DNA from: Bacteroidia bacterium
GTDB lineage: Bacteria; Bacteroidota; Bacteroidia; M30B66
Direction: 5' to 3'
DNA length: 64,000 nucleotides
NCBI GenBank assembly: GCA_018401705.1
Contig: JAGYKL010000004.1
Coordinates: 101,810 to 165,809, forward strand
The first letter of the stretch is position 1. The number at the start of each line of letters is the position of its first letter. A model generated the notes under the pieces. That model was not told the DNA's origin, ran no database searches, and saw only the letters and a list, made by a program, of their open reading frames with translations. Made by a program: the position numbers and the translations under genes. Of this stretch, positions 14,915-57,949 are shown piece after piece.

Positions 14915-15394
14915 ATGAATAAATCCAACTTTTTCAAAGTTTCTGCACTAATGGTAGGTGCGTTGATGTGCTTCGGCACTCCTTCAGCAACAGCAAATTC
15001 TAATGTTGAAGTTTTAAAATCAGCAGGTCTTGCTGAAGAAGTAGCCCCTTCTAATTGGCTAAACCTAACTTCTATGTGTTCTGACGATCCTTCAGTTTCG
15101 CGCCGTTGGAGAGTTCGAAACAATACCGATGCTCCAGTAGAATACACTTGGGAAGTATATGGAACAGCTCAGAGCGGAGCTGGAGTAGCTCCTGCTGGCG
15201 ATTCTTTTTTCTTTACTGATGCAATCGGTGGAGCAAATACAACAAAAATTTATTGGGTAGTTGATGGACAAACTTTTCAAAAAACAAAAGCATCTGGTGG
15301 AGCAGAGTGCGAAGTAATAGTGCCTCCAACTCCTTCTGGTTGTTTCGCATCAGCAGTAAGTTTCTTTAACCAAGTGATTAACTGCATCTGGTAA
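14915..15394 (+). CDS. Secreted paralogue copy A, intact N-terminal fragment (signal peptide + LTSMCS-type domain)
   Basis: 159 residues before the first frameshift. Signal peptide up to about residue 27 (MNKSNFFKVSALMVGALMCF, then ...SATA), then a domain of about 95 residues that I cannot name. Its landmarks are LNLTSMCSDDP, RRWRVRN, YTWEVYGTAQSG, FFFTDAIGGANTTKIYW and KTKASGGAEC. The same domain occurs at the N-terminus of the protein at 20343. The last true residues (PPTPSGCFASAVSFFNQ) start the region shared with the gene at 17695; after that an extra T near 15376 throws the frame. The complete gene would span 14915-17078 and encode about 720 residues. Whether it is a pseudogene or a badly read intact gene is unresolved. 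Confidence 0.7.
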   Translation: MNKSNFFKVSALMVGALMCFGTPSATANSNVEVLKSAGLAEEVAPSNWLNLTSMCSDDPSVSRRWRVRNNTDAPVEYTWEVYGTAQSGAGVAPAGDSFFFTDAIGGANTTKIYWVVDGQTFQKTKASGGAECEVIVPPTPSGCFASAVSFFNQVINCIW

Positions 15395-17078
15395 TGCTGT
15401 TCAGCTTCTGAAAGAAGCAATCCTGAAGAAGCTTTAGGCGCTCCAAATGCACAAACGCCTTCAGTAGTTGCAGATGTTCAGAACTCTTTCTTTAGGTTTT
15501 GGTGAGTTCTGAAGTTCAATTTGTAAATCCAATTGCAATCTACTCGGGAGCTGATATCAGAATTTGGGAATCTTCTGCAGGAAATAGCAGCGAGCGTTCA
15601 TTAATTGAAGTATCTCAGGATGGTCTTGGATATTTAATACAAGGTTGGAAATCACAGCTGATGGTGAAGTTGACTTTGCTGATGTATTCTCTGATTTTAT
15701 TCAGTTTGTCTGTATTACTGACGTTACACCAAACAATGGTGGAGGCGGCATCTATACAGATGGATTTGATGTTGATGCTGTTGAGTGTCTTCATGGTGAG
15801 TACGTAGCGCCTGAAGGTTGCTATGCTGTAGAGGTGTAGTTGACTTTAATCAGAAGAAAAGAATGATGGTTCTATCATTGAAGAAGCAAGAAGTGATGAA
15901 TCAAAAGCACAGGGGTGTATGCCACAGGATGATGTTTCTGACAACTCTGTATCATTAGGGATTTGGTGGAGATATTACTTTGAAATTTGCAGTGCAATAA
16001 AGAATGGTCCAGGTGCTGACGTTCAAAATCAGAGTCAACTTTTGACTTCAATTGATGGAAATTGTGCTCGTTACCCAGAAAAGATTTGGCATTTGTTTCT
16101 TTAGACGTATGGGGAAACTTCAGTTACTTAGGCGAAGGATGTCAGGATACTGATTTTGATTTAGGTTCATTAGCTTGGGCTCAGTATATTAAGATTGTTG
16201 ACGTAAGTGAAATTGGAGCACCCTCAATAAGGAACTCCAGTAGCAGATGCTTACGATTTAGATGGTATTATGTGCTCCTAATGGCTATGAAGCAAACCCA
16301 CCCTGCAGAATTAATGGTGAGGAGCTGCCAGTTATTGAAGATGAGAATCAAGGTCTTCAGAAAAAACGGTAATCCAGTAGCTGGAGCACGTTCAGACTCT
16401 TAGAATGCCTTTAGGTATGCCAGAGGATGGTGATATTATTAATTTCTACGCTCTTAGTTTTTGTGGAGAGTTATTGTGAAATTTATGTGATTTTTGATAC
16501 AGAAGAGTTGCTGATTTTAGAGTTGTTGAAACGACTTATAACAATGCAACTTGTGAGTAGATCCTTTGAAAAGCAATGGTATCATCTAAATTAGATGTTG
16601 CTGACGAATGGTCAGAAGGTGTTGAGATTTGCTTAGATGGCGATATCGATTTGAATGGAATTTATGCAGCACAGTATAATAGAATTCAAGATCGTTCAAT
16701 GATGTGCGATTTTTCTGGAGCAGCTGATGGTTACGTGATGTAAACGGAGTTGTTTCCTTAAATACATGTCTAGAAGGTGAGGAGGAAATCAGAATTGCTG
16801 ACAATAATTTACACCTGATGAAGCAACTTCAGAATGCTAGTCCGAATCCATTTAAGTCTGACTTCAGATTGATATTATTACAACTGGCAACAACGATAGA
16901 ACAGCTTCATCAATGTATTTAACTTCTAGGTCAAAGTGTTTATACAAACACAATTAACGAAGCTTCTTCATCAACAATTTCAGAAGTAGTTAACCTTGGA
17001 AGCTTAAAAGCTGGTGTTTACTTTGTAACGGTTGAAACCAACACTACAAAAGAGACAATCAAGTTAATTAAGCAGTAA
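15320..17078 (+). pseudogene. Degenerate copy of the ADGYDVDG-repeat region (C-terminal part of paralogue copy A)
   Basis: This stretch aligns along its full length with 18307-20070 but cannot be read in one frame. Indels occur roughly every 30-60 bases and stops appear in all frames. Short in-frame pieces are still recognisable (for example the sequence around 15645-15839 and 16062-16240), and the final T9SS segment before the TAA at 17078 is nearly perfect. Several differences from copy B are silent third-base changes, for example around 16525-16540, which implies the copy was under protein-level selection until recently. Dense indels with few substitutions look more like sequencing or assembly error than like normal decay. 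Confidence 0.75.
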
Positions 17079-17100
17079 TTAATTAGGTTTTTCATTTAAA

Positions 17101-17130
17101 AAGAGGCTATCCCAGAAAGGGTAGCCTCTT
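17101..17130 (+). terminator. Intrinsic terminator of paralogue copy A
   Basis: AAGAGGCTA (17101-17109) pairs with TAGCCTCTT (17122-17130), with an inner CCC/GGG pair, followed by CTTTTTT. The same hairpin, slightly diverged, follows copy B. Confidence 0.85.
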
Positions 17131-17138
17131 CTTTTTTA

Positions 17139-17499
17139 TAAGAACTGCTCCAAATAACTTGAGTACTTTAAAAATCAACAATGTAAAAACTGTTGAACTT
17201 AATTCATCCATAAAGTCTTTAGTAATTCTAGTTTTAAGTCAATCTAAGAATTTACTTTTGAGAATACTGACTTTTTAAGTTTACCATCAGCGGCATCTTA
17301 AATACATAAACCATTTTTCAATTAATTATTAGTATTCTATTCTTCGCGGAAATATTAAGACCAAGCGTTTTGAGTTTGTTTAAATAGCCGACATTTAGAG
17401 TGTATTGTTGGTCGTTGCTTTTTTGAGTTAAATATTATGTTTAAGATAGGGTAATGTAATTTTAATGTAAGAAATAGGCCTTATGTGTAATTTATGGAT
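17139..17499. other. AT-rich intergenic stretch with no recognised feature
   Basis: Between the copy A terminator and the promoter-like box of the next gene I see no credible ORF, tRNA or strong hairpin. It is not shared with the region before copy A. Confidence 0.5.
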
Positions 17500-17694
17500 T
17501 AGTTTTGCAGCATCTTAATTCAGGGATGGATAATTGGACGTCAATAAAATAAGGCTAAGTTGAGTTGAAGTTCATAATCTCCATAATGCAAGAGCTTTAT
17601 TTATACCCTGAAAATAAAATCTTACATCTGTAAGAAATTTGTAACCTTTTAAAAAGTGTTGCGTTTACAAACTCAAAACCCTAACCAATTAATT
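17500..17694 (+). promoter_or_regulatory. Promoter box and conserved leader of paralogue copy B
   Basis: TAGTTTTG (17500-17507) matches TAnnTTTG; no clear TTG precedes it. The leader of about 187 bases has the same length as in copy A. It carries the same CTTACATCTGTAAG inverted repeat (17621-17634), 60 bases from the ATG at 17695. Confidence 0.45.
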
Positions 17695-20070
17695 ATGAAA
17701 AAATCAAAACTCTTTAAAGTATCAGCACTAGCTGCTAGTGCTATGATGTGTTTTAACACTGCTTCATTGCAAGCACAAAACGAATCAGTAAATGCTCCTT
17801 GTGGAACGAATCTTATCGTTAACGGAGATTTCGAAGCCGGTAATTCTGGTTTCTCTTCTGAATACACATATAAGGTTGACGGACCAGCTGGAAACGAGCT
17901 TGTTCCTGAATTAACTTATGGTATTGGTCCAGATGCTTCTACTTATCATCCAAATTTTGATGGTTTGGCTAGAAGTGGAAATTTCATGATAGTTAACGGT
18001 AACGAAGATTTCGTTCGTACTGTTTGGTCTCAGTCTGTTAATGTTGAGGCAGGAAAAGAATATGAATTTTCAATTTTTGTTAGTAACGTTTATCAATCAG
18101 AGCCAGCTAATTTAAGATTTATGGCAGGTGACGAGGAGATAGGAACTTTTACTCCAGTAATTGATAATGTTACTGACTGGTTCAATTTTACTGCAACTTA
18201 TACAGCAACTTCAACTGGCGAAGTAGAGATTAAAATATTTACTGATAACCTTACTCTTCAGTATGGTAATGATTTCGGTTTAGATGATATTTCATTTACT
18301 GAAGTTTGTCCTCCAACTCCTTCTGGTTGTTTCGCATCAGCAGTAAGTTTCTTTAACCAAGGATTAACTGCATCTGGTAATGCTGTTCAACCGGAAAGGA
18401 GCAATCCTGAAGAAGCTTTAGGCGCTCCCAATGCACAAACGCCTTCAGTAGTTGCAGATGTTCAGAACTTCTTTTCTTTAGGTTTTGGCGGAGTTCTTGA
18501 AGTTCAATTTGCAAATCCAATTGCAAACGGCCCGGGTGCAGATATCAGAATTTGGGAATCTTCAGCAGGAAATAGCAGCGAGCGTTCTTTAATTGAAGTA
18601 TCTCAGGATGGTCTTGGATATTTACCAGTTGCTGAAATCACAGCTGATGGTGAAGTTGACTTTGCTGATGTATTCTCTGATTTTATTCAGTTTGTTCGTA
18701 TTACTGACGTTACACCAAACAATGGTGGAGGCGGCATCTATACAGATGGATTTGATGTTGATGCTGTTGAGTGTCTTCATGGTGAGTACGTAGCGCCTGA
18801 AGGTTGCTATGCTGTAGAGGTAGTTGACTTTAATCAGAAGAAAAAGAATGATGGTTCTATCATTGAAGAAGCAAGAAGTGATGAATCAAAAGCATTAGGT
18901 ATGCCACAGGATGATGTTTCTGACAACTTCGTATCATTAGGATTTGGTGGAGATATTACTTTGAAATTTGGTAGTGCAATAAAGAATGGTCCAGGTGCTG
19001 ACGTTCGTGTAATCGAGTCAACTTTTGGATCTTCAATTGATGGAAATTGTGCTCGTTACCCAGAAAAGATTCGTGCATTTGCTTCTCAGGACGGATGTAA
19101 CTTCGTTTACTTAGGCGAAGGATGTCAGGATACTGATTTTGATTTAGGTTCATTAGCTTGGGCTCAGTATATTAAGATTGTTGACGTAAGTGAAATTGGA
19201 GCAACTTACCAAGGAACTCCAGTAGCAGATGCTTACGATTTAGATGGTATTATGTGTCTTAATGGCTATGAAGCAAACCCAATTCCTGCAGAATTAATGG
19301 TAGGAGCTGCTGCTGAAGTTATTGAAGATGAGAATCAAGGTCTTCAGAAAAACGGTAATCCAGTAGCTGGAGCACGTTCAGACTCTCAGAATGCTTTAGG
19401 TATGCCAGAGGATGGTGATATTATTAATTTCTACGCTCTTGGTTTTGGTGGAGAGTTAGTAGTGAAATTTGATTATGTGATTTTTGATGAAGAAGGAGTT
19501 GCTGATTTTAGAGTTGTAGAGACTACTTATAACAATGCAACTTGCGAGCAGTATCCTGAAAAAGCAATGGTATCATTTAAATTAGATGTTGCTGACGAAT
19601 GGTCAGAAGGTGTTGAGATTTGCTTAGATGGCGATATCGATTTGAATGGAATTTATGCAGCACAGTATATTAGAATTCAAGATCGTTCAATGATGAGTGA
19701 TTTTTCTGGAGCAGCTGATGGTTACGATGTAAACGGAGTTGTTTCCTTAAATACATGTTCAGAAGGTGAGGAGGAAATCAGAATTGCTGACAATAATTCT
19801 ACACCTGATGAAGCAACTTCAGTGAATGCTAGTCCGAATCCATTTAAGTCTGACTTCAGATTGGATATTACAACTGGCAACAACGATAGAACAGCTTCTA
19901 TCAATGTATTTAACTTCTTAGGTCAAAGTGTTTATACAAACACAATTAACGTAGCTTCTTCATCAACAATTTCTGAAGTAGTTAACCTTGGAAGCTTAAA
20001 AGCGGGTGTTTACTTTGTAACGGTTGAAACCAACACTACAAAAGAAACAATCAAGTTAATTAAGCAGTAA
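17695..20070 (+). CDS. Secreted ADGYDVDG-repeat protein, copy B, with CBM-like N-terminus and T9SS sorting domain
   Basis: 791 residues from the ATG at 17695; an in-frame TTG 13 codons upstream would bury the signal peptide. Order: signal peptide (MKKSKLFKVSALAASAMMCF, then ...SLQAQ); a carbohydrate-binding-module-like beta-sandwich at about 30-200 (GTNLIVNGDFEAGNSGF ... YGNDFGLDDISF); three copies of an unnamed domain of about 130-150 residues; then the T9SS type A end (NASPNPFKSDFRL ... GVYFVTV). The repeat fingerprint is NF.SLGFGG.I.LKF..PI..GPG.D, E.....C.RYPEK, QDGCNFVYLGEGC, DLGSLAWAQYIKI.D and .DGYDVDGV. The acidic motifs suggest calcium binding or a beta-sandwich adhesion fold. It is the intact partner of the degenerate copy A. 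Function is unknown; a surface adhesin or glycan binder is plausible. Confidence 0.8.
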   Translation: MKKSKLFKVSALAASAMMCFNTASLQAQNESVNAPCGTNLIVNGDFEAGNSGFSSEYTYKVDGPAGNELVPELTYGIGPDASTYHPNFDGLARSGNFMIVNGNEDFVRTVWSQSVNVEAGKEYEFSIFVSNVYQSEPANLRFMAGDEEIGTFTPVIDNVTDWFNFTATYTATSTGEVEIKIFTDNLTLQYGNDFGLDDISFTEVCPPTPSGCFASAVSFFNQGLTASGNAVQPERSNPEEALGAPNAQTPSVVADVQNFFSLGFGGVLEVQFANPIANGPGADIRIWESSAGNSSERSLIEVSQDGLGYLPVAEITADGEVDFADVFSDFIQFVRITDVTPNNGGGGIYTDGFDVDAVECLHGEYVAPEGCYAVEVVDFNQKKKNDGSIIEEARSDESKALGMPQDDVSDNFVSLGFGGDITLKFGSAIKNGPGADVRVIESTFGSSIDGNCARYPEKIRAFASQDGCNFVYLGEGCQDTDFDLGSLAWAQYIKIVDVSEIGATYQGTPVADAYDLDGIMCLNGYEANPIPAELMVGAAAEVIEDENQGLQKNGNPVAGARSDSQNALGMPEDGDIINFYALGFGGELVVKFDYVIFDEEGVADFRVVETTYNNATCEQYPEKAMVSFKLDVADEWSEGVEICLDGDIDLNGIYAAQYIRIQDRSMMSDFSGAADGYDVNGVVSLNTCSEGEEEIRIADNNSTPDEATSVNASPNPFKSDFRLDITTGNNDRTASINVFNFLGQSVYTNTINVASSSTISEVVNLGSLKAGVYFVTVETNTTKETIKLIKQ

Positions 20071-20092
20071 TTAATTAGGTTTTTCAATCATA

Positions 20093-20122
20093 AAGAGGCT
20101 ATCCCAGAAGGGGTGGCCTCTT
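20093..20122 (+). terminator. Intrinsic terminator of paralogue copy B
   Basis: AAGAGGC (20093-20099) pairs with GCCTCTT (20116-20122), with an inner GGGA-type stem containing G-U pairs, followed by CTTTTTTTT. It is homologous to the hairpin at 17101-17130. Confidence 0.82.
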
Positions 20123-20342
20123 CTTTTTTTTATAAGAACTTACATTGGATAATCACCATAGTTTAATCTGCTATCACCTTTATTGAAGGTCTTTTGATGA
20201 ATATCTATTTTGGTAGGAGATTTTTCTTACATGCTAATCAGTGTTCTCGAACTTTTAGCTGAAACCAATAATTCATCCTTTTCGTCTTAGTTGGGAAACT
20301 GATAACAAAATCATTGAACTCAATTTACCTTAATAAGATCAG

Positions 20343-22049
20343 ATGAAAAGGAAAACTACATTAAGTAACAAAACAAAATTAGCAACATCACTTCGAAGAA
20401 GGCTTGTAATAGGAGCTGCTGGGATGCTTGTTTTTGTAGCCATTGGAGGCATTGTTTTGTTCAATCTCAACAGTAAAGACTCAAGAGCAAATCTTTACGA
20501 GGACGGCGAAATCGTCTCAGATTTAAATCTCACTTCTATGTGCTCTGAAAATCCTGATTTAATGCGTCGCTGGCGAGTTAATAATCCTAATGATTTTGAC
20601 GTAGCCGTGGAATGGGATGTTTATCCATATTTCCAAACGGGACTAATTATTGCACATCCGGGACATACGTTTTTTTACTCAAATACAATTCCAGGTCCTA
20701 ATACAGTAAGAATTCGCTGGCAAGACGAGAATTTAGTTTGGAAACAGAAAACAAAAGCTTCTGGAGGTCAGGCTTGTGAGTCGGCCGGCTGTTATGTTTC
20801 TGAGGTTGTTTCGTACAATCCCAAAAAGAGAAATGACGGACAAGAAATTCTTGAAGCTCGACGCGATCCTAACAAGGCAACAGGAGCTCCTGAGAACGAT
20901 GAATCGATGAACTTCGTTTCTCTTGGTTTTGGAGGAGATATAACTCTGAAATTTTCTTCACCCATTGCAAATGGGGATGGTGATGATATTAAAGTAACAG
21001 AATCAACTTTTGGTGCATCAAACGGTAATTGTGGAAGGTATCCTGAGAAAATTCAAGCTTTCGCTTCTCAAGATGGTTGTAACTTTGTTTATATCGGGGA
21101 AGGTTGTCAAGATGCTACATTTGATTTAGGCTCTTTGTCTTGGGCTCAATACATAAAATTAAGGGATGTAAGTCCTGTTGATGCTGCATATAATAATCAG
21201 GTAGCAGATGGCTATGATGTGGATGCGGTAGAGTGCCTCAATGGTCCTGCTGCAAATACAAACGACGATGGTTTAGTTGCAGGTTCTGCTCAAGAAGTTG
21301 TTCAATATACAAGAGGAACTCGCAAGAATGGAACAGATATTCATGCTTCTAGAAGAGATCCGGAAAAAGCTTTGGGTATTCCACAAAACGATGATATAGG
21401 TGTGAACTTTGTTTCTCTTGGTTTTGATGGAAGTTTGACTTTGAAATTTGATTACGCTGTATTTGACGGAGAAGGTCCAGATCTACAAATTGTAGAGACT
21501 TCATTTGGAGCTCCAAGTTGCCAAGCATATGGCGAAAGAGCTTATGTTGAAGGCTCAATTGATGGGAATGAATATGTCGTTCTGGGAGAAATTTGTTTAG
21601 ATGGAACAATTGACTTTGCAACTAGCGGTGTTTATGCAATACATTATTTAAAGTTGACAGAACGTTCTCCTATGTCTGATTTCCCTAATTCGGCAGACGG
21701 TTATGACGTTGATGGAGTACTAGCCCTTCATAATGGTTGCACAGAAGAAACTAGAATTACAGCATTTGACAATAATTCAGTTCCTGATGAAATTGCTGAA
21801 ATACAGGTAAGCCCTAATCCATTCAAAGAAAGAATGAATTTGATTTATGAATCAGGCTCGATTGATGAAAAAATTGATATTAAAGTATTCAATTATGTTG
21901 GTCAAATGGTAAGCAGCGAGTCTGTCACAGTTCCAAAACGCTCTAAATATTCTCACGATATTGCGGGAAGCGCTTTACCTAAAGGAGTCTATATTGTTAC
22001 TGTTGAATCAGGTGGACAAAAGCAAAGCTTAAAAGTAATCAAGAACTAA
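20343..22049 (+). CDS. Secreted ADGYDVDG-repeat protein with LTSMCS-type N-terminal domain and T9SS sorting domain
   Basis: 568 residues. The N-terminus is unusually long and basic (KRKTTLSNKTK...RRRL) before a hydrophobic segment at about 22-43, so it is either an atypical signal peptide or a signal anchor. Residues about 60-150 are the same domain as in copy A (LNLTSMCSENP, RRWRVNN, KQKTKASGGQAC). Two ADGYDVD-type repeats follow (about 155-310 and 325-475). A linker (AFDNNSVPDE) and the T9SS type A end (VSPNPFKERMNLI ... GVYIVTV) close the protein. The repeats keep the RYPEK and QDGCNFVYIGEGCQD motifs. It shares domain content with both neighbours, which supports shuffling within the array. 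Confidence 0.8.
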   Translation: MKRKTTLSNKTKLATSLRRRLVIGAAGMLVFVAIGGIVLFNLNSKDSRANLYEDGEIVSDLNLTSMCSENPDLMRRWRVNNPNDFDVAVEWDVYPYFQTGLIIAHPGHTFFYSNTIPGPNTVRIRWQDENLVWKQKTKASGGQACESAGCYVSEVVSYNPKKRNDGQEILEARRDPNKATGAPENDESMNFVSLGFGGDITLKFSSPIANGDGDDIKVTESTFGASNGNCGRYPEKIQAFASQDGCNFVYIGEGCQDATFDLGSLSWAQYIKLRDVSPVDAAYNNQVADGYDVDAVECLNGPAANTNDDGLVAGSAQEVVQYTRGTRKNGTDIHASRRDPEKALGIPQNDDIGVNFVSLGFDGSLTLKFDYAVFDGEGPDLQIVETSFGAPSCQAYGERAYVEGSIDGNEYVVLGEICLDGTIDFATSGVYAIHYLKLTERSPMSDFPNSADGYDVDGVLALHNGCTEETRITAFDNNSVPDEIAEIQVSPNPFKERMNLIYESGSIDEKIDIKVFNYVGQMVSSESVTVPKRSKYSHDIAGSALPKGVYIVTVESGGQKQSLKVIKN

Positions 22050-22073
22050 GATTCTAAAAATTCACTTAATATG

Positions 22074-22107
22074 AAATTCGCAATGAGTCAAAGCTCATTG
22101 CGAATTT
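22074..22107 (+). terminator. Intrinsic terminator
   Basis: A 14-bp perfect stem, AAATTCGCAATGAG (22074-22087) with its complement at 22094-22107 and a 6-base loop, runs into a T-rich tract. It ends the gene at 20343. Confidence 0.88.
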
Positions 22108-22129
22108 TTTTTATCATCTTAAATATAGT

Positions 22130-22137
22130 TATCTTTG
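22130..22137 (+). promoter_or_regulatory. Promoter -7-type box of the paralogue at 22159
   Basis: TATCTTTG matches TAnnTTTG, 21 bases before the ATG at 22159. The upstream region at the right distance is T-rich but has no TTG. It sits just after the previous gene's terminator, as expected for a separate transcript. Confidence 0.4.
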
Positions 22138-22158
22138 AAGAACCTTAACTAAATTTTG

Positions 22159-23565
22159 ATGAAAACATTTTACAATCAATCTACTCTTTACACTTGTTTA
22201 GCAGCGTTTCTTATAACTGCTTCGTTAAACAGCGCTATTGCTCAACCTGATCCAATTGAACCAGGAATCGTTTGCGACATTTCTGCAGATGAAGTAATGT
22301 CTTATCTTCCTAAGAAAAGAAAAGACGGTTCAACAATTCCTGCTGCATATGCAACAGAATCTAATGCGTTAGGAGTGCCAACTGATTCAGATATTCCGGG
22401 GCCAATTAATTTTGTGGCTTTAGGTTTTGGAGGTGAAATTACTTTAAGACTTTCAGCGCCTCTAGCTGATGCAAAAGGCAATGACTTTGAGGTTGTTGAA
22501 ACATCATACAATACAGTTTGCAGAAGATACCCTGAAAAAGCAATGATTTATGTTTCTCAGGACAATTGCAATTTTGTTTGTCTTGGAGAAGCATGTCATA
22601 ATACACAGTTTGACTTAGCTGGAAGCGGTCTTTCTTGGATTCAGTATGTTAAAATTCATGACGTAAGTCCAATTGAAAGTCCTCAATTTGATTTTGCAAC
22701 TGCTAATGGATATGATGTAGACGGAATTAAGTGCTTACATGGAATTGTTGAAGAGAATCCAGTAGTTAACTCTGAGTTTGTAGCCGGAACTCCAAGAACA
22801 GCAATTAATTACATTCCTACTGCTCCTGAAACAATTGCCGCATCAAGACTTAATCCAGCAAATGCTACTGGGGAGCCCGAGGGTGGAAATGGAAGCCCGG
22901 TAACCTTTACTTCTTTAGGCTTTGGAGGTGAAATTACTTTAGTATTCGATTATATCGTTTTTGATCAGGAAGGTCCAGACCTATATGTAACTGAAACTTC
23001 TGGTTCTTCTAACTATCCTGAAAGAGCTCAGTTTTATGGTTCTTCATGTGGCTCTGACTGGGTTGAATTAACAACTACAGAAGATGGTTTCACACTAACT
23101 CAAGATGGTTGGATTGACTTTAACGGTAGCCTTTATGGTTTGAAGTATTTACGTATCGTTGACAGAAGTGCTAGGTCGCAATTTGGTGGTGGCGCTGATG
23201 GATATGATGTTGATGGAGTAGTTGCAATTAATTCAAGCAATTGTTCTTCTATTGATGAAGTTGCTTTTAGAACAAGTGCTATCGAATACGGAGTAATTGA
23301 TGAATTGCCAAATGCAGATGTGTATCCAAATCCATTTAATGAGATGATTAAGGTATCTGTATTTACTACTAAAGAAAATGAAAAAGTGGAGGTTTCTATT
23401 TTTACTGTTGAAGGAAGACAGGTTATTTCAACTTCATTCTTTGCAAATTCGGCAGAAACAAACGAATTCGTTATTCCTACTCAAAATTTGTCAAACGGAA
23501 TTTATCTATTAGAGATTAATTCAATCTCTTCGGGTAAGCAAACACGCAGAATCGTAAAGAACTAA
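22159..23565 (+). CDS. Secreted ADGYDVDG-repeat protein, two repeats, T9SS sorting domain
   Basis: 468 residues from the ATG at 22159 (the codon before it is an in-frame TTG). Signal peptide ending near residue 29 (...NSAIA-QPDP). Repeat 1 at about 35-195 has YLPKKRKDGSTI, NFVALGFGGEITLRL, RRYPEKAMIYVSQDNCNFV and NGYDVDGIKCLHG. Repeat 2 at about 210-355 has TFTSLGFGGEITLVF, NYPERAQFY and ADGYDVDGVVAIN. The C-terminal 80 residues (DVYPNPFNEMIKV ... NGIYLLEI) are a T9SS type A domain. There is no extra N-terminal domain, making it the simplest member of the array. Function is unknown. Confidence 0.82.
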   Translation: MKTFYNQSTLYTCLAAFLITASLNSAIAQPDPIEPGIVCDISADEVMSYLPKKRKDGSTIPAAYATESNALGVPTDSDIPGPINFVALGFGGEITLRLSAPLADAKGNDFEVVETSYNTVCRRYPEKAMIYVSQDNCNFVCLGEACHNTQFDLAGSGLSWIQYVKIHDVSPIESPQFDFATANGYDVDGIKCLHGIVEENPVVNSEFVAGTPRTAINYIPTAPETIAASRLNPANATGEPEGGNGSPVTFTSLGFGGEITLVFDYIVFDQEGPDLYVTETSGSSNYPERAQFYGSSCGSDWVELTTTEDGFTLTQDGWIDFNGSLYGLKYLRIVDRSARSQFGGGADGYDVDGVVAINSSNCSSIDEVAFRTSAIEYGVIDELPNADVYPNPFNEMIKVSVFTTKENEKVEVSIFTVEGRQVISTSFFANSAETNEFVIPTQNLSNGIYLLEINSISSGKQTRRIVKN

Positions 23566-23593
23566 GGAATCTGTTTTAATAAATTTAGATTAA

Positions 23594-23630
23594 AAAGAGG
23601 GGTCTCAGCATTGTGTTGAGGCCCCTCTTT
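23594..23630 (+). terminator. Intrinsic terminator
   Basis: AAAGAGGGG (23594-23602) pairs with CCCCTCTTT (23622-23630), with an inner CTCA/TGAG pair, and is followed by TCTT. It ends the gene at 22159. Confidence 0.82.
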
Positions 23631-23639
23631 TCTTACATG

Positions 23640-23919
23640 CCTACTGCAAGCTTCATGAAATTAGCGATTTACATGAGGTATTGGAATCTTTGGGGCAATC
23701 GAAACTCTTAAGTCCTTGTTATTAAGGACAGTTATAAGCATACATATGTAGATATCTTGTATTGTAAGAATTTATATGGCTATTTGGTTTAAATGGAATT
23801 CAATGGAGTAATAATTTATAATATTGAAGATATAATTATCAAATTATATTTATATCTTTATTAATAAATTATGTTATTGAATTTGCAAACTCCTTATGCA
23901 AGATTGTGATGTGATTTTA
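23640..23919. other. Very AT-rich intergenic stretch with no recognised gene
   Basis: About 280 bases, with 23810-23880 almost entirely A and T. No ORF of note or strong hairpin is seen. It probably holds upstream promoter sequence for the next paralogue. Confidence 0.5.
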
Positions 23920-23927
23920 TAGATTTG
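23920..23927 (+). promoter_or_regulatory. Promoter -7-type box of the last paralogue
   Basis: TAGATTTG matches TAnnTTTG, 22 bases before the GTG start at 23950. The nearest upstream TTG (23904-23906) is only 13 bases away, shorter than the usual spacer. Confidence 0.38.
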
Positions 23928-23949
23928 ATTGTTTTTAAACCTAATATTT

Positions 23950-25431
23950 GTGAAAACCTTAACACTTCGTGCAGCAATCTTTTCTGGATTGCTTTTAGCA
24001 GGCCTCGGAACGTCCGAATTGTCTGCGCAAATTTATCCTGTAGATTATTCTTATAATCCTGGAACAACGGCTGACGGATTAGGCACAGTTCCAGACGGAC
24101 GCGATGATCCGGAGAATGCTTTAGGAGCTCCTGATAACAGCGATATTGATAGTGGAGAAGTGCCGGGCGACGCCAGCACAGTTAATTTTGTTTCCTTGGG
24201 TTTTGGAGGATACATCGATTTGGTTTTTGCTGAGCCATTTGGTCAGGGTGAAGGAAGCGACTTAGATATATTTGAAACTTCATATAATACTCCAAACTGC
24301 GGTATTTGGCCAGAGTTAGCTAACGTATATGTTTCTCAGGATGGTTGTAATTGGCTTTTGATAGCATCTGGCGAGTGTCAGAACTTTAGTGTTGAATTAC
24401 CTGACAATATGCCTTGGGCTCTTTATGTTAGAATAGAAGATGCATCACCTAATAATCAATTTTCGCCTAATGACGATGGTTATGATGTAGATGGTGTACG
24501 TGCTAACTACACTAGTGAGGTTGAGTTAAAAACTCCAGGTAGTTTGCTTGCTGCTGATGGTTATGAGGATTTTATTCAAGGTTCTATAAAAGCTAACCCA
24601 GCAACTTTGCCTGCAGCCAACAGAAGAAACCCCAATAAAGCATTAGGTTTACCTTCGGAAAGCGATTCCCCGGGAGCACCTGTATTCGTTTCTCTTGGGT
24701 TTGATAGAATGGATACTGACGAAATAGAAGGTAGAATAACTTTGACGTTTGACTATACTATTTTCGATAGGGATGGCGCTGATATAAGTGTTTTTGAAAC
24801 AACATTTGGCGATAATATAAATCGTGCTTGTTCAAATTATCCTGAGGTTGCTGAGTTTTGGGGTTCTAATGATGGAGTGAATTTTACTTTGCTTTCAGCA
24901 GCATCAAGCGAGCCTGATGAAGCCTATTTGGGCGGCCCTGGTCGACTTTGTCGCGATGGATTATTGGATATTTCTAATATGCCTGAGATGAATGGTCAGA
25001 AAACACTTCGTTATTTAAAGATTATTGATAAGTCGATTAAGTCTTCAAATAGATTCCCAGGCGGGGCTGATGGATATGATGTAGATGGAGTTTATGGTTA
25101 TCCTTGCGACTATGAAGAGGATGGTAGATTTGCTATGCATGACCAGAACAATTACCCAGATGAAGATGAAAATATGTTCTTTGCCGGCTTAGCACCTAAT
25201 CCTGCATCGCAATATGTAAATGTTAAAATTGAGGCAGCTGGTACTAACGAGAATTATATGATTCGTGTAATTGATTTGATGGGTAGAGTTGTTGCTCAAG
25301 AAAGTTTAAACGCAGACGCCAATGCTTATGTAAATTACACCTTCAGCGTTGATCAATTACCTTCGGGTGTTTATATGCTTAGCGTAGAGACACGAAATCA
25401 CAAAGTTGTTGAGAGATTGATAAAGAATTAA
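23950..25431 (+). CDS. Secreted ADGYDVDG-repeat protein, two repeats, T9SS sorting domain
   Basis: 493 residues from a GTG at 23950. A TTG seven codons earlier is possible, but GTG gives the better signal peptide (VKTLTLRAAIFSGLLLAGLG, then ...SELSAQ). Repeat 1 (about 30-185): LGAPDNSDI, NFVSLGFGGYIDLVF, SDLDIFETSYN, YVSQDGCNW and DDGYDVDGV. Repeat 2 (about 200-405): FVSLGFDR, ADISVFETTFG, NYPEVAEFWGSNDG and GGADGYDVDGVYG. The T9SS type A end reads GLAPNPASQYVNV ... SGVYMLSVET. It is the last of five consecutive family members on this strand, each with its own terminator, so they are separate transcripts. Function is unknown. Confidence 0.82.
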   Translation: MKTLTLRAAIFSGLLLAGLGTSELSAQIYPVDYSYNPGTTADGLGTVPDGRDDPENALGAPDNSDIDSGEVPGDASTVNFVSLGFGGYIDLVFAEPFGQGEGSDLDIFETSYNTPNCGIWPELANVYVSQDGCNWLLIASGECQNFSVELPDNMPWALYVRIEDASPNNQFSPNDDGYDVDGVRANYTSEVELKTPGSLLAADGYEDFIQGSIKANPATLPAANRRNPNKALGLPSESDSPGAPVFVSLGFDRMDTDEIEGRITLTFDYTIFDRDGADISVFETTFGDNINRACSNYPEVAEFWGSNDGVNFTLLSAASSEPDEAYLGGPGRLCRDGLLDISNMPEMNGQKTLRYLKIIDKSIKSSNRFPGGADGYDVDGVYGYPCDYEEDGRFAMHDQNNYPDEDENMFFAGLAPNPASQYVNVKIEAAGTNENYMIRVIDLMGRVVAQESLNADANAYVNYTFSVDQLPSGVYMLSVETRNHKVVERLIKN

Positions 25432-25451: not shown

Positions 25452-25485
25452 AAAAAAAGCTACTTCATTTGAAGTAGCTTTTTTT
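25452..25485. terminator. Bidirectional intrinsic terminator
   Basis: A 15-bp perfect stem, AAAAAAAGCTACTTC (25452-25466) with GAAGTAGCTTTTTTT (25471-25485) and a 4-base loop, lies between two convergent genes. Confidence 0.92.
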
Positions 25486-36379: not shown

Positions 36380-36668
36380 TTTTTTATTTACATTAATTGG
36401 AAGTGATTTTTGATAGTTCCCTCTAAAATAAAAACCAATTAATTTTTCGCTCTTCGCAATAATCTTACATGTTTTTCTAATTGAGGAGATTTGGTAAATG
36501 TGCATAATATTCACACAATGAGTAAAATAGAGTGGTGTTGTGCTCATTAATCAGCATTGTTTCTTACCTGTGTAATGTTCTAAAGCAGTAAAGACAGCCC
36601 ATTGATTTAGTCTGAACGTACTTTGTAAGCGTGTACGTGTATTCGTATTGCGGTTAAAAAAGGCGACG

Positions 36669-39600
36669 ATGAAATGGAGTAAACTTTTACTAATTATTTT
36701 TTTACCGGGACTAATGGTTCTCAGGGCTCAAAGTCCTGTTTTTACTGTTAACCCATCAGGAACTGCATCTGTTTGTGCAGGTAGTAGTATAACTGTTAAT
36801 TCCTCAATGGCAAACGCTTTTGCAGGAACTAATTCATATGCTATTTCCACAATTCCATTTACTCCTTATCCTGTCTTAGGAGGGAATGCCGTAACTATGG
36901 CGGATGATCAAATAACTGGTCCACTCGCTATTGGTTTCCAGTTCTGCTTCTTTGGGAATACATACACACAGTTTTATCTTGGATCAAACGGATGGATTGG
37001 CTTTACGCCTGGTCAAACTATTGCGTTTACAGCTAATTCAATACCTAATCCGGGTATTTTTGTTCCTCGAAATTGTATCATGGGCCCTTGGATGGACTTT
37101 AATCCAGGTGTTGGAACAGGTTCTCCTTATATAAGGTATCAAACTCAAGGAATTGCACCATACAGAAGATTGGTTGTGCAATGGACAAGTTGCCCTCTTT
37201 ATCAATGCACAGCTTCAAATGCAACATTTCAAATAGTTATCTATGAAAGTACCAATATCATAGATAACTACATAACTAATAAACCAACTTGTTCTGTTTG
37301 GGCAGGTGGCACAGCTACTCAAGGTTTACATAATATGGCAGGAACAATTGCCGTTGCCGTTCCTGGTAGAAATGCTTCAGTTTGGACAGCTAATAATGAT
37401 GGAAAAAGATTCACCCCAGATGGACCTCCCAATTACACACTTAATTGGACCTCGAATGGCTTCCCGATAGGAACTGGTAATTCAGTTACTACAACTATAA
37501 ATGGCCCCGGACTGACTCGGATTATAGCGAGAGCAAACTTTCAATGTAGTAACCTTATATTATACGATACCTTAGATGTTTCTATAGGAGGTGGCGCTGA
37601 TGCAAGTTTTTCTGTACCACCAATTGTATGTGCCGGACAACCGGCAAGTTTTGTTTATACGGGGGGCGTTGCCGGAACCGGTAACTGGACTTTTACTGGA
37701 GGAACGCCTGCAAGTGTTGCAGGACTTGGAACACAATCTGCAACATGGAATACTCCAGGAACATATAATGTTAGTTTAACTGTTACACCAAGTTCCGGTT
37801 TGTGTGCTCCCGGCTCTTTAACTCAAACTGTGAATGTTGTAGCTCCTCCTAATTCGGCATTTAATCTTCCTGCTTCTGTTTGCATGGGTAATACAGCTGC
37901 TGTAAGTTTTGCAGGATCCGCACCTCCCGGCTCATTATATAGTTGGAATTTTGGTTCAGGAGCAACACCAGCAACAGCTTCATCGGTAGGACCTCACAAT
38001 GTTTCTTGGTCAACTACGGGAACTAAAACTGTTACACTAACTCTTACAACAGGAGCTTGTTCTTCAACCACAACACATACAATTGACGTAAGTAATGCGC
38101 CTACATCAAGCTTCGCTGTGAACCCAAGTTCTGTATGTGTAGGAAATGCAAGCACAATAACATATACAGGTACTGCTGCTCCTGGAGCAACATATGCATG
38201 GAATTTTGGAATAGGTGCAAGTCCTGCAACAGCAACCAGTGCTGGACCTCATTCAGTAACCTGGTCAAGTTCTGGATCAAAAAACATTAGTCTAACAGTT
38301 ACGGCAGGAGGCTGCAGTTCTCCTGTTACCACCCAAGCTGTTAATGTTAATGCTATACCAACAGCAAGTTTCGTTTTGCCATCAAGTGTTTGTGTTGGTG
38401 CGAATGCCAGTATATCATATAATGGTTCTGCGCCTGCACCTCCTGCTGCAACCTATAGTTGGAATATAGGTGGTGGAAGTCCTGCTCCAGGAAATGTTCA
38501 AGGTCCATTTGGAGTTAGCTGGGGAACAACAGGGTCAAAAACGGTGTCTCTTACAGTTTCTCAAAATGGCTGTACATCAGCTCCTGTAAATCAAAATATT
38601 ACTGTTAATGCTTTGCCAACAATAAGTATAACTTCGGCAAATCCCAATGTTTGTGTTGGAGATAATGTTAGTTATTCTATTGTTGGAGGGCCACTTGGAG
38701 GTGGAACAACCTATAATTGGAATTTTGGAGCTGGAGCAAGTCCAGCAACTTCTACTTTGGCTACACCACCGGCGGTTTCCTATTCAACAGCCGGAACAAA
38801 AACAGCTACCCTTACAGTGATCAGCGGTGGCTGTTCCTCAGCTCCTGCAACAGTGAATATTTCTGTAGTAAATCCACCGCCAGCGGTTATTTCGGCTCCA
38901 GCAACAGCTTGCCTTGGTTCTTCAGTTACAATTTCTGCAACTGGTCCTTTTACTGGAGGAACAACTTTTAACTGGAATTTTGGATCAGGAACTGTAATTT
39001 CAGGTTCTGGTGCAGGACCTTATCAGGTTTCATGGGCGAGTGCCGGAAATCAAACAGTTAGTTTAACTGTTAATTCAGGTGCGTGTTCAGCATCAACAAG
39101 TGTAATTATTGATGTTAGATCTGGGCCAACCGCTAGTTTTAATGCACCATCACCTGTATGTCAGGGTAACTCGTCAATTATAACTTATACGGGTACCGGT
39201 GTTTCAACAGATACCTATAATTGGAATTTTGGAGCAGGTGCAACACCTGCAACAGCAACAGGTATGGGTCCTCATTCTGTTTCATGGAGTACTTCAGGAA
39301 ATAAAACCATTGCATTAAACATGGTGAGTGGCGGATGTACTTTGCCTCAAGTATCTCAGACATTAGTAGTTAATGCTGCGCCTAATGCATCATTTACAGC
39401 TCCTTCTCCAGTTTGTTCTGGAAGCTCCAATGCTGTAACATTTACAGGAACTCCGGCTGTAGGAGCTTCATATTCTTGGAACTTTGGTTCTGGCGCTACT
39501 CCTTCCACAGCAACAGGTCTTGGTCCACATGCTGTTGTTTGGGCTAATTCAGGTAACTCAACTGTAACATTAACAATGACTAATGGAGGCTGCTCTTCGG

Positions 39601-40373
39601 TGGTGACACAAAATGTTACAGTTAGCTCAGGTGCCCCGGCGGTTATTAATGCACCTTCAATTGCTGGTAATGGCGTTGCGGTTTCTATTGGTCTCTCAGG
39701 CCCTGCTCAAGTTGGTGCTTCATATAACTGGAACTTTGGAGCAAATGCTAGTCCCGCCACAGCAAGTGGTGCAGGACCTCACTCAGTTACATATTCCTCA
39801 ACTGGTGCATCTAATATAACTCTTAATACTTCACTTAACGGCTGCACAAATACAGCTACCGCATCTATTGCTATTGTAAATGCTGCAACTTCAACATTTA
39901 CAGCCAGCACAACTATATGCACAGGAGCTAATGCAAATGTTACATATTCTGGAAATGCATCACCTGCAGCCAATTATACTTGGAATTTCAATGGTGGCAC
40001 GGCATCCCCCGGCACGGGTCAAGGACCTCATACCGTTAGTTGGACAACTCCAGGAGTTAAAACAATTACCCTAACTGTAAGTGAGGGTGGATTTACATCA
40101 GCTCAAAGCTCTATAAATGTTACCGTAAATCAAACACCTACTTCAACGTTTACAATTCCTGCTAACGGATGCTTGGGCTCGCCAATAACTGCAACATACA
40201 CTGGAAATGCTAACCCAGGAGCCTTGTATATCTGGAATTTTGGTTCAGGTTCTACACCAGCCTCTAAGAAGCGACTCAGGACCTCACTCAATCACCTATT
40301 CAAACGCCGGAGCAAAAACGGTTACTCTTCAAGTTATGCAAAGTGGATGCACTTCGCCAACTACAAGCAATAA
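36669..40373 (+). CDS. Giant PKD-repeat cell-surface protein, N-terminal part (frameshifted)
   Basis: Start at the ATG 36669 (MKWSKLLLIIFLPGLMVLRA, a signal peptide); an in-frame ATG at 36648 is less suitable. Residues about 25-300 form an N-terminal beta domain (GFQFCFFGNTYTQFYLGSNG, then WMDFNPGVG). From about 320 on come PKD-like repeats of about 85-90 residues, each with a VC.G...ITYTG, Y.WNFG.GA.PATA, GPHSV.W and KTV.LTV..GGCSS pattern. The frame breaks between about 40262 and 40275 in a repeat that otherwise continues correctly in the +1 frame, so this and the next entry are one gene of about 2,590 codons. Surface adhesion or gliding-related roles are typical; the ligand is unknown. Confidence 0.85.
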   Translation: MKWSKLLLIIFLPGLMVLRAQSPVFTVNPSGTASVCAGSSITVNSSMANAFAGTNSYAISTIPFTPYPVLGGNAVTMADDQITGPLAIGFQFCFFGNTYTQFYLGSNGWIGFTPGQTIAFTANSIPNPGIFVPRNCIMGPWMDFNPGVGTGSPYIRYQTQGIAPYRRLVVQWTSCPLYQCTASNATFQIVIYESTNIIDNYITNKPTCSVWAGGTATQGLHNMAGTIAVAVPGRNASVWTANNDGKRFTPDGPPNYTLNWTSNGFPIGTGNSVTTTINGPGLTRIIARANFQCSNLILYDTLDVSIGGGADASFSVPPIVCAGQPASFVYTGGVAGTGNWTFTGGTPASVAGLGTQSATWNTPGTYNVSLTVTPSSGLCAPGSLTQTVNVVAPPNSAFNLPASVCMGNTAAVSFAGSAPPGSLYSWNFGSGATPATASSVGPHNVSWSTTGTKTVTLTLTTGACSSTTTHTIDVSNAPTSSFAVNPSSVCVGNASTITYTGTAAPGATYAWNFGIGASPATATSAGPHSVTWSSSGSKNISLTVTAGGCSSPVTTQAVNVNAIPTASFVLPSSVCVGANASISYNGSAPAPPAATYSWNIGGGSPAPGNVQGPFGVSWGTTGSKTVSLTVSQNGCTSAPVNQNITVNALPTISITSANPNVCVGDNVSYSIVGGPLGGGTTYNWNFGAGASPATSTLATPPAVSYSTAGTKTATLTVISGGCSSAPATVNISVVNPPPAVISAPATACLGSSVTISATGPFTGGTTFNWNFGSGTVISGSGAGPYQVSWASAGNQTVSLTVNSGACSASTSVIIDVRSGPTASFNAPSPVCQGNSSIITYTGTGVSTDTYNWNFGAGATPATATGMGPHSVSWSTSGNKTIALNMVSGGCTLPQVSQTLVVNAAPNASFTAPSPVCSGSSNAVTFTGTPAVGASYSWNFGSGATPSTATGLGPHAVVWANSGNSTVTLTMTNGGCSSVVTQNVTVSSGAPAVINAPSIAGNGVAVSIGLSGPAQVGASYNWNFGANASPATASGAGPHSVTYSSTGASNITLNTSLNGCTNTATASIAIVNAATSTFTASTTICTGANANVTYSGNASPAANYTWNFNGGTASPGTGQGPHTVSWTTPGVKTITLTVSEGGFTSAQSSINVTVNQTPTSTFTIPANGCLGSPITATYTGNANPGALYIWNFGSGSTPASKKRLRTSLNHLFKRRSKNGYSSSYAKWMHFANYKQ

Positions 40374-43300
40374 CAGTAATATTATTGCAGCTCCAACGGC
40401 TGATTTTACCTTACCATCAACAGTATGTGTAAGTGAAAATGCTTCAATTTCTCTTGTCGGCTCTGCTCAAACAGGAGTGACTTATAGTTGGAATTTTGGT
40501 GCAAATGCTACACCTGTTACTGCTACAGGAGCTGGTCCGCATAGTGTATATTGGTTGGTACAAGGAAGTAAGACAATTAGTCTCACGGCTTCATCCGGCG
40601 CATGCGCCGCGACACCTATAACACATGCTATTTCGGTACTCGCACCGCCAAGTTCATCGTTTACGCTAAATACTCCGGTTTGTGAGGGTGAATTAATCAC
40701 AGCAACCTATACAGGAAGTGCAGGTGTTGGCGCTAATTTTACATGGGATTACCCTTCGGGAACCCTTGTTTCAGGCTCAGCTGCTGGTCCAATCGAGATT
40801 CAATTTCCTGCCGCAGGCAATTATTCAATAGACCTAACAGTTGAAGAAAATGGTTGTAATTCGACCGTATCGACACAGAATCTTAGTCTTGAAGCACCTC
40901 CGGTATTTACGATATCTTCTCCTGCTTTTGCTGGTGAGAATGCCCCTGTTTCTGTTACATATTCTGGCGATATGCCTGCCGGAGCAACGTATACTTGGAA
41001 TTTTGATGGAGGAACAGTAGTTTCTGGCTCAGGTTCAGGTCCTTATCAAGTTTCTTGGGCTGCTGCCGGAGTTTATTTAATTAGCTGTTCTGTTACCAAT
41101 GGAGTTTGTCCTCCTGTGTCAGCTAGCACTTCAACAGAGGTCATTGCCAATGCTATTGCAACATTTACGGCTGATTCGCCTGTGTGTGAATTTCAAACTT
41201 CAAACATTGTATTTACTGGAGTAACTCAGCCTGGAGCCACTTACACCTGGGATTTTGATGGAGGAACTATTCTTAGCGGCAGTGGTGCAGGGCCTTATGA
41301 AATAAACTGGAATACACCGGGTACAAAAAATATTAGCCTAGTAGTAACTCAGATGGGGATTCCATCGCCTGCAATGACGCAACAAGTGGTGGTTAATCAA
41401 ATTCCAACTGCACTATTTGTTCCTCCCGCATCTATTTGTTCTGGTCAGGAAGGTACTTTCATTTATACAGGAAATGCATCTACAGGAGCTATTTATACAT
41501 GGGATTTTGGATCAGGAACACTAACCAACTCAATGGCTGGAAGTACCTATGATGTAAGTTTCCCGAGCTCAGGATCAGAAAACATCAGTTTAACAGTTAC
41601 AGAGAATGGCTGTGTGTCAGCACCTCAGACTGCTGCAGTGTTTGTTCAATCACCACCAGATGCAAGTTTTACCGCTACAACATCCGCCTGTCAGGGCGAA
41701 ACAATAAATGTAGTTTACACGGGCTCTGCTGATGCAACAGCCTCATTTAATTGGGATTTTGATGGTGGAAATATTATTAGTGGCTCAGGCCAAGGTCCTT
41801 TTGAAATTGAATATCCAATTGCCGGAATTCAAAATGTTAGCCTTGAAACTTCTTATGGTGGTTGTACTTCAGCCCTTGAAGTCAATCAAGTGAATATTAA
41901 CCCAATTCCAAGCGCAACTTTTGCTTTGAGTGGAAATACTTGTGCCGGCGACACCGTTACGATTGCATATACAGGTAATGGAGGTTCGGGAACAACCTTT
42001 GTTTGGGATTTTGAGGCATTAATTTATTACGATGGTATTGATGCTGGTCCATATCAGGCTGTTTTTCCTGGTTATGGAACCTTTCCAGTTGGCTTATACG
42101 TTTCAGAAAATGGATGTACCTCAGAAGTTGAGGTAGTGAGCTACACTTTTGAACCAGCTCCAACGGCTTCATTTACACTAACTGATACCATTTTTGCCGG
42201 ACAAGATGCCCTTGCCGATTTTACCGGAATTGCTCCTGCGGGAACGATAACTACCTGGGATTATCCTTCTGCAACTTTCGTTTCAGGAAGTCCCGAAGAT
42301 GAACTTATTCTTAATTACCCCACAGCGGGAACATTTGATGTAACCCTTGAAATGAGTCTTGGAGGCTGCGCCGACGGACCAATTACCGAGCAGATTGTGG
42401 TATTGCCGATGCCTGGTTCAGAGTTCTCTGTTTCACAGGATACCATTTGTGCTCAAACAGCATTATTTGTTACTTATGATGGCATTGGTACATCACAAGC
42501 TCAGTATAACTGGGATTTTGATGGAGCTAACATTGTTTCTGGTTCTGGAGCCGGTCCTTATCAATTAGAATGGGCTACTGAAGGTGTAAAAACTATTTCA
42601 CTTACAGTAAGTGTAAATGGAATCACAACTCCTGCTACAGAACTTTGGGTAGATGTAATTGCTGTTCCTCAAGCCGACTTTACTATTGCCGATGCCTTAT
42701 GTGCAGGTGATACACTTGAAGCTGTTTACAGCTCTGTAACTACCTTAAATGCTCAGTTTAGCTGGGATAGTGACAATGCCGATTTTGAAGATGTGAATGA
42801 TCCGGCAAACCCATATTTCAGCTGGAATACACCTGGAGATAAAATTATAGTATTAAGTATAGCAGATGCTATGTGCATTTCTACGCCAGTAATGCATACT
42901 GTAACCGTTCATGAAATTCCTGAGGCAATTTTTGAGTTGCCCGACTTTGCATGTCGTTTCTCAGAAGCAGATGTGGTTTATACTGGAAATGCTAGTCAAA
43001 CAGCTTCTTTTGATTGGAATTTTGGCACAGCAGAAATCATGAATGGCTCAGCTGGAGGACCAATAAGCCTGCTCTGGAATGAGCCCGGAAGCCAGGAAGT
43101 AACTCTGGAAGTTTCTGAGAATGGTTGCAGTTCAGCCCTATATTCAGAAACCATTTTTGTGAGAGAATTGCCAGTAGCAGATGCGGGTGATGATATGATG
43201 CTTTGCTCAGAAGATACAATTAGGCTTCAGGCTTTAAATCTTGCAGGATATTCATTTAAGTGGTTGCCTGCAGCTGGATTAAGTTCAGATACTGTTTCGA

Positions 43301-44448: not shown

Positions 44449-44581
44449 AAGGAAGAAGGGGAAAGTTGAAAGTGAAAAGTTGAAAGGTTAAAGTTGAAAG
44501 GTTAAAGTTGAAAGGTTAAAGTTGAAAGGGGAATGTTGAAAGAGGAAAGTTGGAAGGTTAAAGTTGAAAGGGGAAAGTGAT
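44440..44581. repeat. Cytosine-free purine-rich stretch with 14-bp tandem repeats
   Basis: There is not a single C on the plus strand from 44440 to 44581. Inside, a 14-bp unit AAAGTTGAAAGGTT recurs in register at 44476, 44490, 44504 and 44518 (last copy ending GGGG), flanked by looser variants. It lies immediately downstream of, and partly overlaps, the end of the giant surface-protein gene. Confidence 0.85.
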
Positions 44582-44597
44582 CCCGATAGCTATCGGG
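44582..44597. repeat. 16-bp perfect palindrome
   Basis: CCCGATAGCTATCGGG is fully self-complementary and marks the sharp end of the cytosine-free stretch. It is not followed by a T-run. Confidence 0.85.
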
Positions 44598-44648
44598 AGG
44601 AAGGTATTACAATCATCTCCAACGCCTTAAGAATTAATCAAATTTTAT

Positions 44649-45093
44649 AGTCCCGCTGAGCTTGCCGAGAATTTTAAGTCCCCCTGAGCTTGTCGAAAAT
44701 TTTCAGTCCCCCTGAGTTTGTCGAAAATTTTAAGTCCCCCTGAGCTTGTCGAGAATTTTGAGTCCACCTGAGCTTGTCGAGAATTTTGAGTCCCCCTGAG
44801 CTTGTCGAGAATTTTGAGTCCACCTGAGCTTGTCGAGAATTTTAAGTCCCCCTGAGCTTGTCGAGAATTTTTTAGTCCCCCTGAGCTTGCCGAAAATTTT
44901 GAGTCCCCCTGAGCATGTCGAGAATTTTGAGTCCCCCTGAGCATGTCGAGAATTTTGAGTCCCCCTGAGCATGTCGAGAATTTTGAGTCCCCCTGAGCTT
45001 GTCGAAAATTTTGAGTCCCCCTGAGCTTGTCGAGAAAATTTTAGGTCCCCTGAGCTTGTCGAGAATTTTGAGTCCCCCTGAGCTTGTCGAAGG
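44649..45093. repeat. Sixteen tandem 28-bp REP-like units
   Basis: Sixteen head-to-tail units, most exactly 28 bases, share the core CTGAGCTTGTCGA followed by an AATTTTG-type spacer. Unit variants include GAGCATGTCGA (three consecutive copies) and TCCACCTGAG. The reading frame rotates because 28 is not a multiple of three, so repetitive ORFs on the minus strand here are artefacts. The core is one half of an inverted repeat completed at 45109-45129. Confidence 0.92.
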
Positions 45094-57758: not shown

Positions 57759-57811
57759 GGCTCATGGCCATGGCTCACTTTGACTTTTGGGGTCACGCTT
57801 TACGCTCATAG

Positions 57812-57834
57812 TTTTGCACGCCTTGCGTGCAAAA
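57812..57834. repeat. REP-like hairpin in a GC-richer intergenic island
   Basis: TTTTGCACGC (57812-57821) and GCGTGCAAAA (57825-57834) form a 10-bp stem with loop CTT. The surrounding 57720-57880 has a base composition unlike the neighbouring genes and looks like a dispersed intergenic repeat. It may also act as a bidirectional transcription barrier. Confidence 0.65.
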
Positions 57835-57949
57835 GCTATCCGCTGCAATCGTTGGCGCGGTAGCTAGCAATTACTTGGCAGTTCAAGTGACAATAATTAC
57901 ATCGAGGTAGTTATAGGTTTAAATCTACAAATGCCTTAAATGTGAAAAA

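Follow-up and report, generated by a model that had tools for sequence, protein, structure and literature searches.

Which kind of protein is encoded by five consecutive genes that share a repeat domain covered by no existing family model, and what might such proteins do outside the cell? This question is raised by a 64,000-nucleotide stretch (the window) from a Bacteroidia bacterium (NCBI GenBank assembly GCA_018401705.1, contig JAGYKL010000004.1, positions 101,810 to 165,809), in which the five genes form a run on the plus strand. An earlier note had regarded the repeat as a domain without characterised function, and the array as an undescribed system. That view is not supported, given a predicted F5/8 type C/CBM32-class fold and profile homology to the B12-capturing protein BtuH. 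The array itself is real, conserved and specific to one taxonomic family, and one of its members is damaged. The explanation that we favour, and consider reasonably probable, is that a BtuH/F5-8C-type domain has expanded by paralogous duplication into surface binders or adhesins, probably calcium-stabilised, displayed by the type IX secretion system (T9SS).

There are 98 copies of the repeat domain in the set compared here. The fingerprint motifs of the repeat are as first described: L48, G49, G52, E74 and E89 are invariant, and D69, D129, D143, D146 and D148 are nearly so. Scans of these 98 copies and of the whole array proteins against Pfam and NCBIfam yield no model for the repeat; in the whole proteins they return a T9SS tail and a weak carbohydrate-binding module (CBM) match and nothing else. 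Similarly, no description of the domain was found in the literature, and a single-sequence search of the PDB gave no useful match. When AlphaFold2 is supplied with the 98 copies, the first repeat domain of gene 3 is predicted to form a discrete beta-sandwich (predicted local distance difference test, pLDDT, 93.5; predicted template-modelling score, pTM, 0.90), as the earlier note's notion of a discrete domain implies. The top Foldseek matches of this model in the PDB are F5/8 type C domains of chitobiases and CBM32s (2kd7, 3f2z and 2xqx; template-modelling score, TM, 0.62-0.67). The highest TM (0.67) belongs to 2xqx, and BtuG1 (8blw_B) appears at rank 11. A library of viral structures returns the generic fold only. 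PF00754 (F5_F8_type_C) is also the commonest weak family match. At E<=1 it is found for 13 of the 98 copies, with a lowest E-value of 2.4e-4, but the highest score seen for a whole protein, 23.8 bits, does not reach the gathering score of 28.2, and ligand-site residues are not comparable. Chitobiase F5/8 type C domains turn up weakly in a search of the PDB with the repeat profile as well. The repeat is thereby predicted to have a galactose-binding-like, CBM32-like beta-sandwich fold of the F5/8 type C class.

The closest characterised relatives are BtuH2 (BT_1956, PDB 7biz) and the BtuH domain of BtuG1/BtuGH (PDB 8blw), which are B12-capture lipoproteins of gut Bacteroides (PMC8941943, PMC10404256, PMC12751083). 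A superfamily profile of all branches (A7), searched against 177,635 PDB sequences, gives BtuG1 8blw_B (E 3e-4) and BtuH2 7biz_A (E 0.016) as its top two hits. The array profile reaches BtuG1 and the combined profile reaches both, whereas a profile of the B12-operon relatives described below misses BtuH in the PDB. In hhalign comparisons with a set of BtuH homologues (A9), the superfamily profile scores 95.7%, the array alone 93.6% and an unrelated control domain 0.1%, where each pairwise E-value represents one comparison. The core motifs SLG-GG, G-D, E and S-D-G align between BtuH and the array domain, both are found in surface proteins of Bacteroidota, and some members of each are fused to propeller domains. 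However, the array domain has about 150 amino acids rather than about 270, and it occurs in tandem, with T9SS tails and outside a B12 locus, whereas BtuH is a lipoprotein. Judged from these alignments, the repeat and the BtuH domain are distantly related members of one superfamily, in which the repeat forms a compact branch. Thus, a match to a characterised family was found at the level of fold class and BtuH profile homology, although not as a Pfam or NCBIfam entry. Membership of DUF4465 (PF14717), the family of the BtuJ B12-binders (PMC12751083, PMC13398666), was considered and rejected, since none of the 98 copies matches it at E<=1.

Two groups of widespread single-copy relatives emerge from twelve neighbourhoods examined. 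In one group the domain precedes an OmpA domain (L073 6362-7207, L074 5745-6650, L075 5797-6705 and L076 5879-6667, with OmpA scanned in L074). The other group adjoins a TonB receptor, DUF5074 (the BtuG family), DUF4465 or a periplasmic binding protein, and a cobalamin riboswitch scoring 70-120 bits is present at four of the five loci examined. The hhalign scores of the repeat domain are 99.3% against the OmpA-fused set and 99.2% against the B12-operon relatives. A further homologue, from Phycisphaerae (L051 8959-9564), has one such domain and, by eye, a PEP-CTERM-like tail. The OmpA-fused and PEP-CTERM-like proteins share the core signature of the array but are single-domain proteins with other modes of anchoring, and the domain is therefore not restricted to T9SS cargo.

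The protein of about 330 amino acids in cobalamin-riboswitch operons (L079, L081, L082, L083 and L094-L101) resembles the array domain in its signature SLGDGG, NGxGxDFAVFENxF, EVSSDG and GFDLDAV, and has a T9SS type A tail where Pfam was scanned (L079 and L081). It differs in being a single domain with extra loops and an ENxF motif containing Asn, and in its B12 operon. It occurs in the same genomes as the array: the family genomes also carry such an operon, composed of the riboswitch, a TonB-type receptor, a DUF4465-type protein, the BtuH-like protein and, in most cases, a protein of the BtuG type, where the receptor, DUF4465 and BtuG types are assigned by resemblance. The operon of G000 reaches the end of contig C78 after its second gene. 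This protein is apparently a non-gut, T9SS-type BtuH found across Bacteroidota, which makes it a candidate B12 binder in many of them. BtuH was reported in 2022 without known structural homologues, and it now joins a wide superfamily whose other members include OmpA-fused, PEP-CTERM-like and T9SS proteins; the unannotated repeat likewise gains a predicted fold and a superfamily.

Profile searches find 2-27 copies of the repeat per genome in the ten genomes that belong to this taxonomic family, and none or one in each of 30 other genomes of the class. In samples of 395 class genomes and 396 phylum genomes, the maximum outside the family is two copies per genome. The repeat profile matches 80 of the 197 genera of the class, nearly always as one protein per genome outside the family and mostly one of 290-350 amino acids. 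Named relatives are metagenome-assembled genomes (MAGs) of Bacteroidota, several of them from ponds. Their loci were retrieved with orthologues of gene 3, the best conserved member of the array (56-66% identity in seven family genomes). Two gene 3 orthologues (L022 6637-8697 and L028 2419-3933) contain long Asp-rich, and Asn/Gly-rich, stretches.

The array is syntenic within the family, flanked at one end by a deoxyhypusine-synthase-like gene and a DAHP synthase/chorismate mutase gene and at the other end by genes for a response regulator and malate dehydrogenase. Its size varies: G003 has three genes, G008 at least four, and both G004 and G006 have five. The gene 2 type precedes the gene 1 type in G004, G006 and G008, which is opposite to the order in the window. 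In a tree of 117 rows, array copies group across genomes by their position within the protein, as N (first), M (penultimate) and C (last) types. Array proteins therefore carry the same M-C pair. The M and C types have a core cysteine pair in common, and M is the richer in cysteines. Other repeat genes of this genome are fusions to pairs of FAS1 domains, to VWA and DUF11, or to a WD40-like propeller. A fusion to HYR repeats is found in a MAG of the Cytophagales. FAS1, VWA, propeller and HYR modules are frequent in adhesion and matrix proteins.

Genes 2-5 are intact, and the repeat (about 150 amino acids) occurs three times in gene 2 and twice in each of genes 3, 4 and 5, so that the range of one to three copies per gene proposed earlier needs correction. 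Each of the four ends in a T9SS type A tail (Por_Secre_tail/TIGR04183) that scores 38-50 bits against cut-offs of 23-27. Putative Sec signal peptides are recognizable by eye at the start of each of the five products. Those of genes 2, 4 and 5 have Gln at the apparent cleavage site, and that of gene 3 is unusually long. A second N-terminal domain (LTSMCS...KTKASGG) is present in two members, genes 1 and 3, as had been observed. The full-length model of gene 3 is poor (pLDDT 66, pTM 0.40) and serves just as a hint that this domain is all-beta. The CBM-like domain ascribed to one member is found at the N-terminus of gene 2 as a CBM_4_9 match (E=0.0056) that lies under the Pfam cut-off.

The description of five secreted paralogues holds for the run of plus-strand genes with export signal, repeat and T9SS type A tail, but the frame of gene 1 is open only at 14915-15394 (159 amino acids). 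Beyond this point the gene is disrupted by dozens of indels, although its pieces still show three domain copies and a T9SS tail. These 3' three quarters are the part that resembles gene 2: an alignment of 15323-17146 with 18310-20140, which covers gene 2 and its terminator, is 92.7% identical, the differences amounting to 74 mismatches and 36 gap openings. The damage is probably a consensus or assembly fault within near-identical repeats. It is possible, if rather unlikely, that gene 1 is instead a genuine pseudogene, produced by recent tandem duplication of gene 2 or by gene conversion. All three codon positions have similar numbers of mismatches (19/17/24), which thus carry no signature of purifying selection, and two more repeat-family members of the same genome are interrupted, namely a frame-broken tandem paralogue (L009 5000-7200) and a gene in unique sequence with an in-frame TGA (L011 2489-3988). 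However, the ratio of indels to substitutions is very high, the damage is limited to the part that is near-identical to the neighbour, with no damage in the unique 5' part, and relatives keep intact neighbours of the gene 1 and gene 2 types. In addition, this draft genome, which consists of 95 contigs, has on contig C12 a second tandem pair with a similar pattern of breakage, in which an intact, diverged 5' part is followed by a broken, neighbour-like 3' part.

In the expansion that we favour, the domain would have been duplicated within one Bacteroidota family to give the conserved array and the scattered genes. The products would be exported by Sec and then cross the outer membrane by the T9SS, and as type A cargo they would be expected to become fixed to surface lipopolysaccharide (LPS). 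Paired, differentiated domains (M then C, sometimes with N before them) may present several ligand sites, and the proteins might act in adhesion or capture by binding a glycan, which seems probable, or another extracellular ligand. We infer a binder or adhesin role because of the T9SS type A tails, the family-restricted expansion, the fold of a binding module and the companion FAS1, VWA, propeller and CBM-like modules. The same evidence supports the earlier suggestion of lineage-specific surface binders or adhesins. Residues D69, E74, E89, D129, D143, D146 and D148 form a plausible candidate for a structural calcium site, in keeping with the calcium-binding acidic loops suggested earlier, and the domains would most likely be stabilised by calcium through these conserved acidic residues. 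The BtuH2 crystal structure holds two calcium ions (PMC8941943), and a DUF4465 B12-binder has also been reported with calcium.

Several points weigh against this explanation. The fold match is at the level of class (TM 0.4-0.67, about 10-18% identity) and is not predictive of the ligand, the BtuH homology rests on short aligned cores of 56-130 columns, and the tree does not separate descent of the array from a B12 protein from descent in the reverse direction.

One alternative, which we consider improbable, is that the array encodes structural coat or scaffold proteins, such as components of a surface layer, a filament or cross-linkers of a capsule, rather than binders of an outside ligand. 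The conserved heterotypic M-C pair, the many copies per genome, the FAS1 and VWA companion modules and the conserved cysteines would all suit such a role. Nevertheless, the gene content of the array differs among family genomes, and the fold is that of a classical binding module.

Even less probable is the possibility that the array proteins are extra BtuH copies that scavenge cobamides at the surface and concentrate corrinoids for the uptake operon. The homology to BtuH and the cobalamin-riboswitch operons of one closest widespread relative group, present in family genomes too, lend this idea some appeal. The B12 contacts of BtuH2 are Gln333, Asn399, Phe401, His476, Tyr510, Trp511, Trp577 and Leu578 (PMC8941943), and since all eight match the residue types in the 7biz chain at an offset of 100, the numbering is secure. 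The equivalent of Phe401 is aromatic (F/Y/W) in 77 of the 98 array copies, in favour of cobamide binding. In contrast, Asn399 aligns with the Asn of ENxF, a residue kept by 12 of 12 operon proteins but by 0 of 98 array copies, 94 of which have Thr or Ser instead. The segment with His476, Tyr510 and Trp511 shrinks from about 100 amino acids in BtuH to about 16 in the array, removing the contact loop. Moreover, the window contains no cobalamin riboswitch, and the DAHP synthase/chorismate mutase and malate dehydrogenase neighbours place the array outside a B12 transport locus. The array fails the BtuH-specific features that were tested; cobamide binding by the same contacts is therefore unlikely, and we reject it.

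A comparably slim chance attaches to a B12-capture-type domain having been copied out of the cobalamin operon to build a multi-gene, T9SS-displayed nutrient-binding coat for another scarce small molecule, or for cobamides held in a different pocket. The array offers a clean case in which to ask how nutrient-binding and surface-adhesin scaffolds interconvert.

Table 1. Features of the repeat-domain array, in window coordinates.
Feature	Position	Strand	Remarks
Gene 1, damaged	14915..17071	+	Undamaged signal peptide and LTSMCS domain, frame open to 15394; the rest a noisy gene 2 copy with broken frame
Gene 1 LTSMCS...KTKASGG N-terminal domain, unnamed	15035..15319	+	All-beta as judged from secondary structure of the gene 3 copy
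Gene 1 stretch near-identical to gene 2	15323..17146	+	92.7% identity to 18310-20140, 36 gap openings
Gene 2, 790 amino acids	17698..20070	+	Signal peptide, CBM_4_9-like region, three repeat domains, T9SS type A tail
Gene 2 domain 1, N subtype	18316..18789	+	ESSA, without core Cys pair
Gene 2 domain 2, penultimate, M subtype	18796..19272	+	
Gene 2 domain 3, last, C subtype	19294..19761	+	
Gene 3, 568 amino acids	20343..22049	+	Long hydrophobic signal at the N-terminus, then LTSMCS domain, two repeat domains and T9SS type A tail
Gene 3 LTSMCS domain	20523..20786	+	
Gene 3 domain 1, M subtype	20781..21251	+	Copy used for folding, pLDDT 93.5
Gene 3 domain 2, C subtype	21273..21740	+	
Gene 4, 468 amino acids counted from ATG at 22159	22159..23565	+	Signal peptide, two repeat domains, T9SS type A tail
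Gene 4 domain 1, M subtype	22270..22749	+	
Gene 4 domain 2, C subtype	22777..23241	+	
Gene 5, 500 amino acids, TTG start as listed	23929..25431	+	Signal peptide, two repeat domains, T9SS type A tail
Gene 5 domain 1, M subtype position	24016..24519	+	
Gene 5 domain 2, C subtype	24535..25113	+	Carries inserts
Terminator-like hairpin 3' of gene 1	17101..17130	+	Scan
Terminator-like hairpin 3' of gene 2	20093..20122	+	Scan
Terminator-like hairpin 3' of gene 3	22073..22108	+	Scan
Terminator-like hairpin 3' of gene 4	about 23595..23629	+	By eye
Terminator-like hairpin 3' of gene 5	25452..25485	+	Scan

The assignment of a terminator to each gene agrees with a terminator-like hairpin after all five, four found by scan and the fifth by eye. 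The number of hairpins across the array region is at chance level, and the informative part is only their position directly after the stop codons.

Three other features of the window lie away from the array. A large open reading frame (ORF) of 1241 amino acids with PKD domains is located at 36648-44448, and its end is overlapped by a long ORF in a different frame (40207-44448). Two adjacent tandem repeat arrays are found at 44456-45090, one with a 14-bp unit present 8.8 times and the other with a 28-bp unit (AATTTTGAGTCCCCCTGAGCTTGTCGAG) present 16 times. Finally, the minus strand carries a Flavo-1 RNA at 57787-57869 (Rfam RF01705, 47.9 bits).

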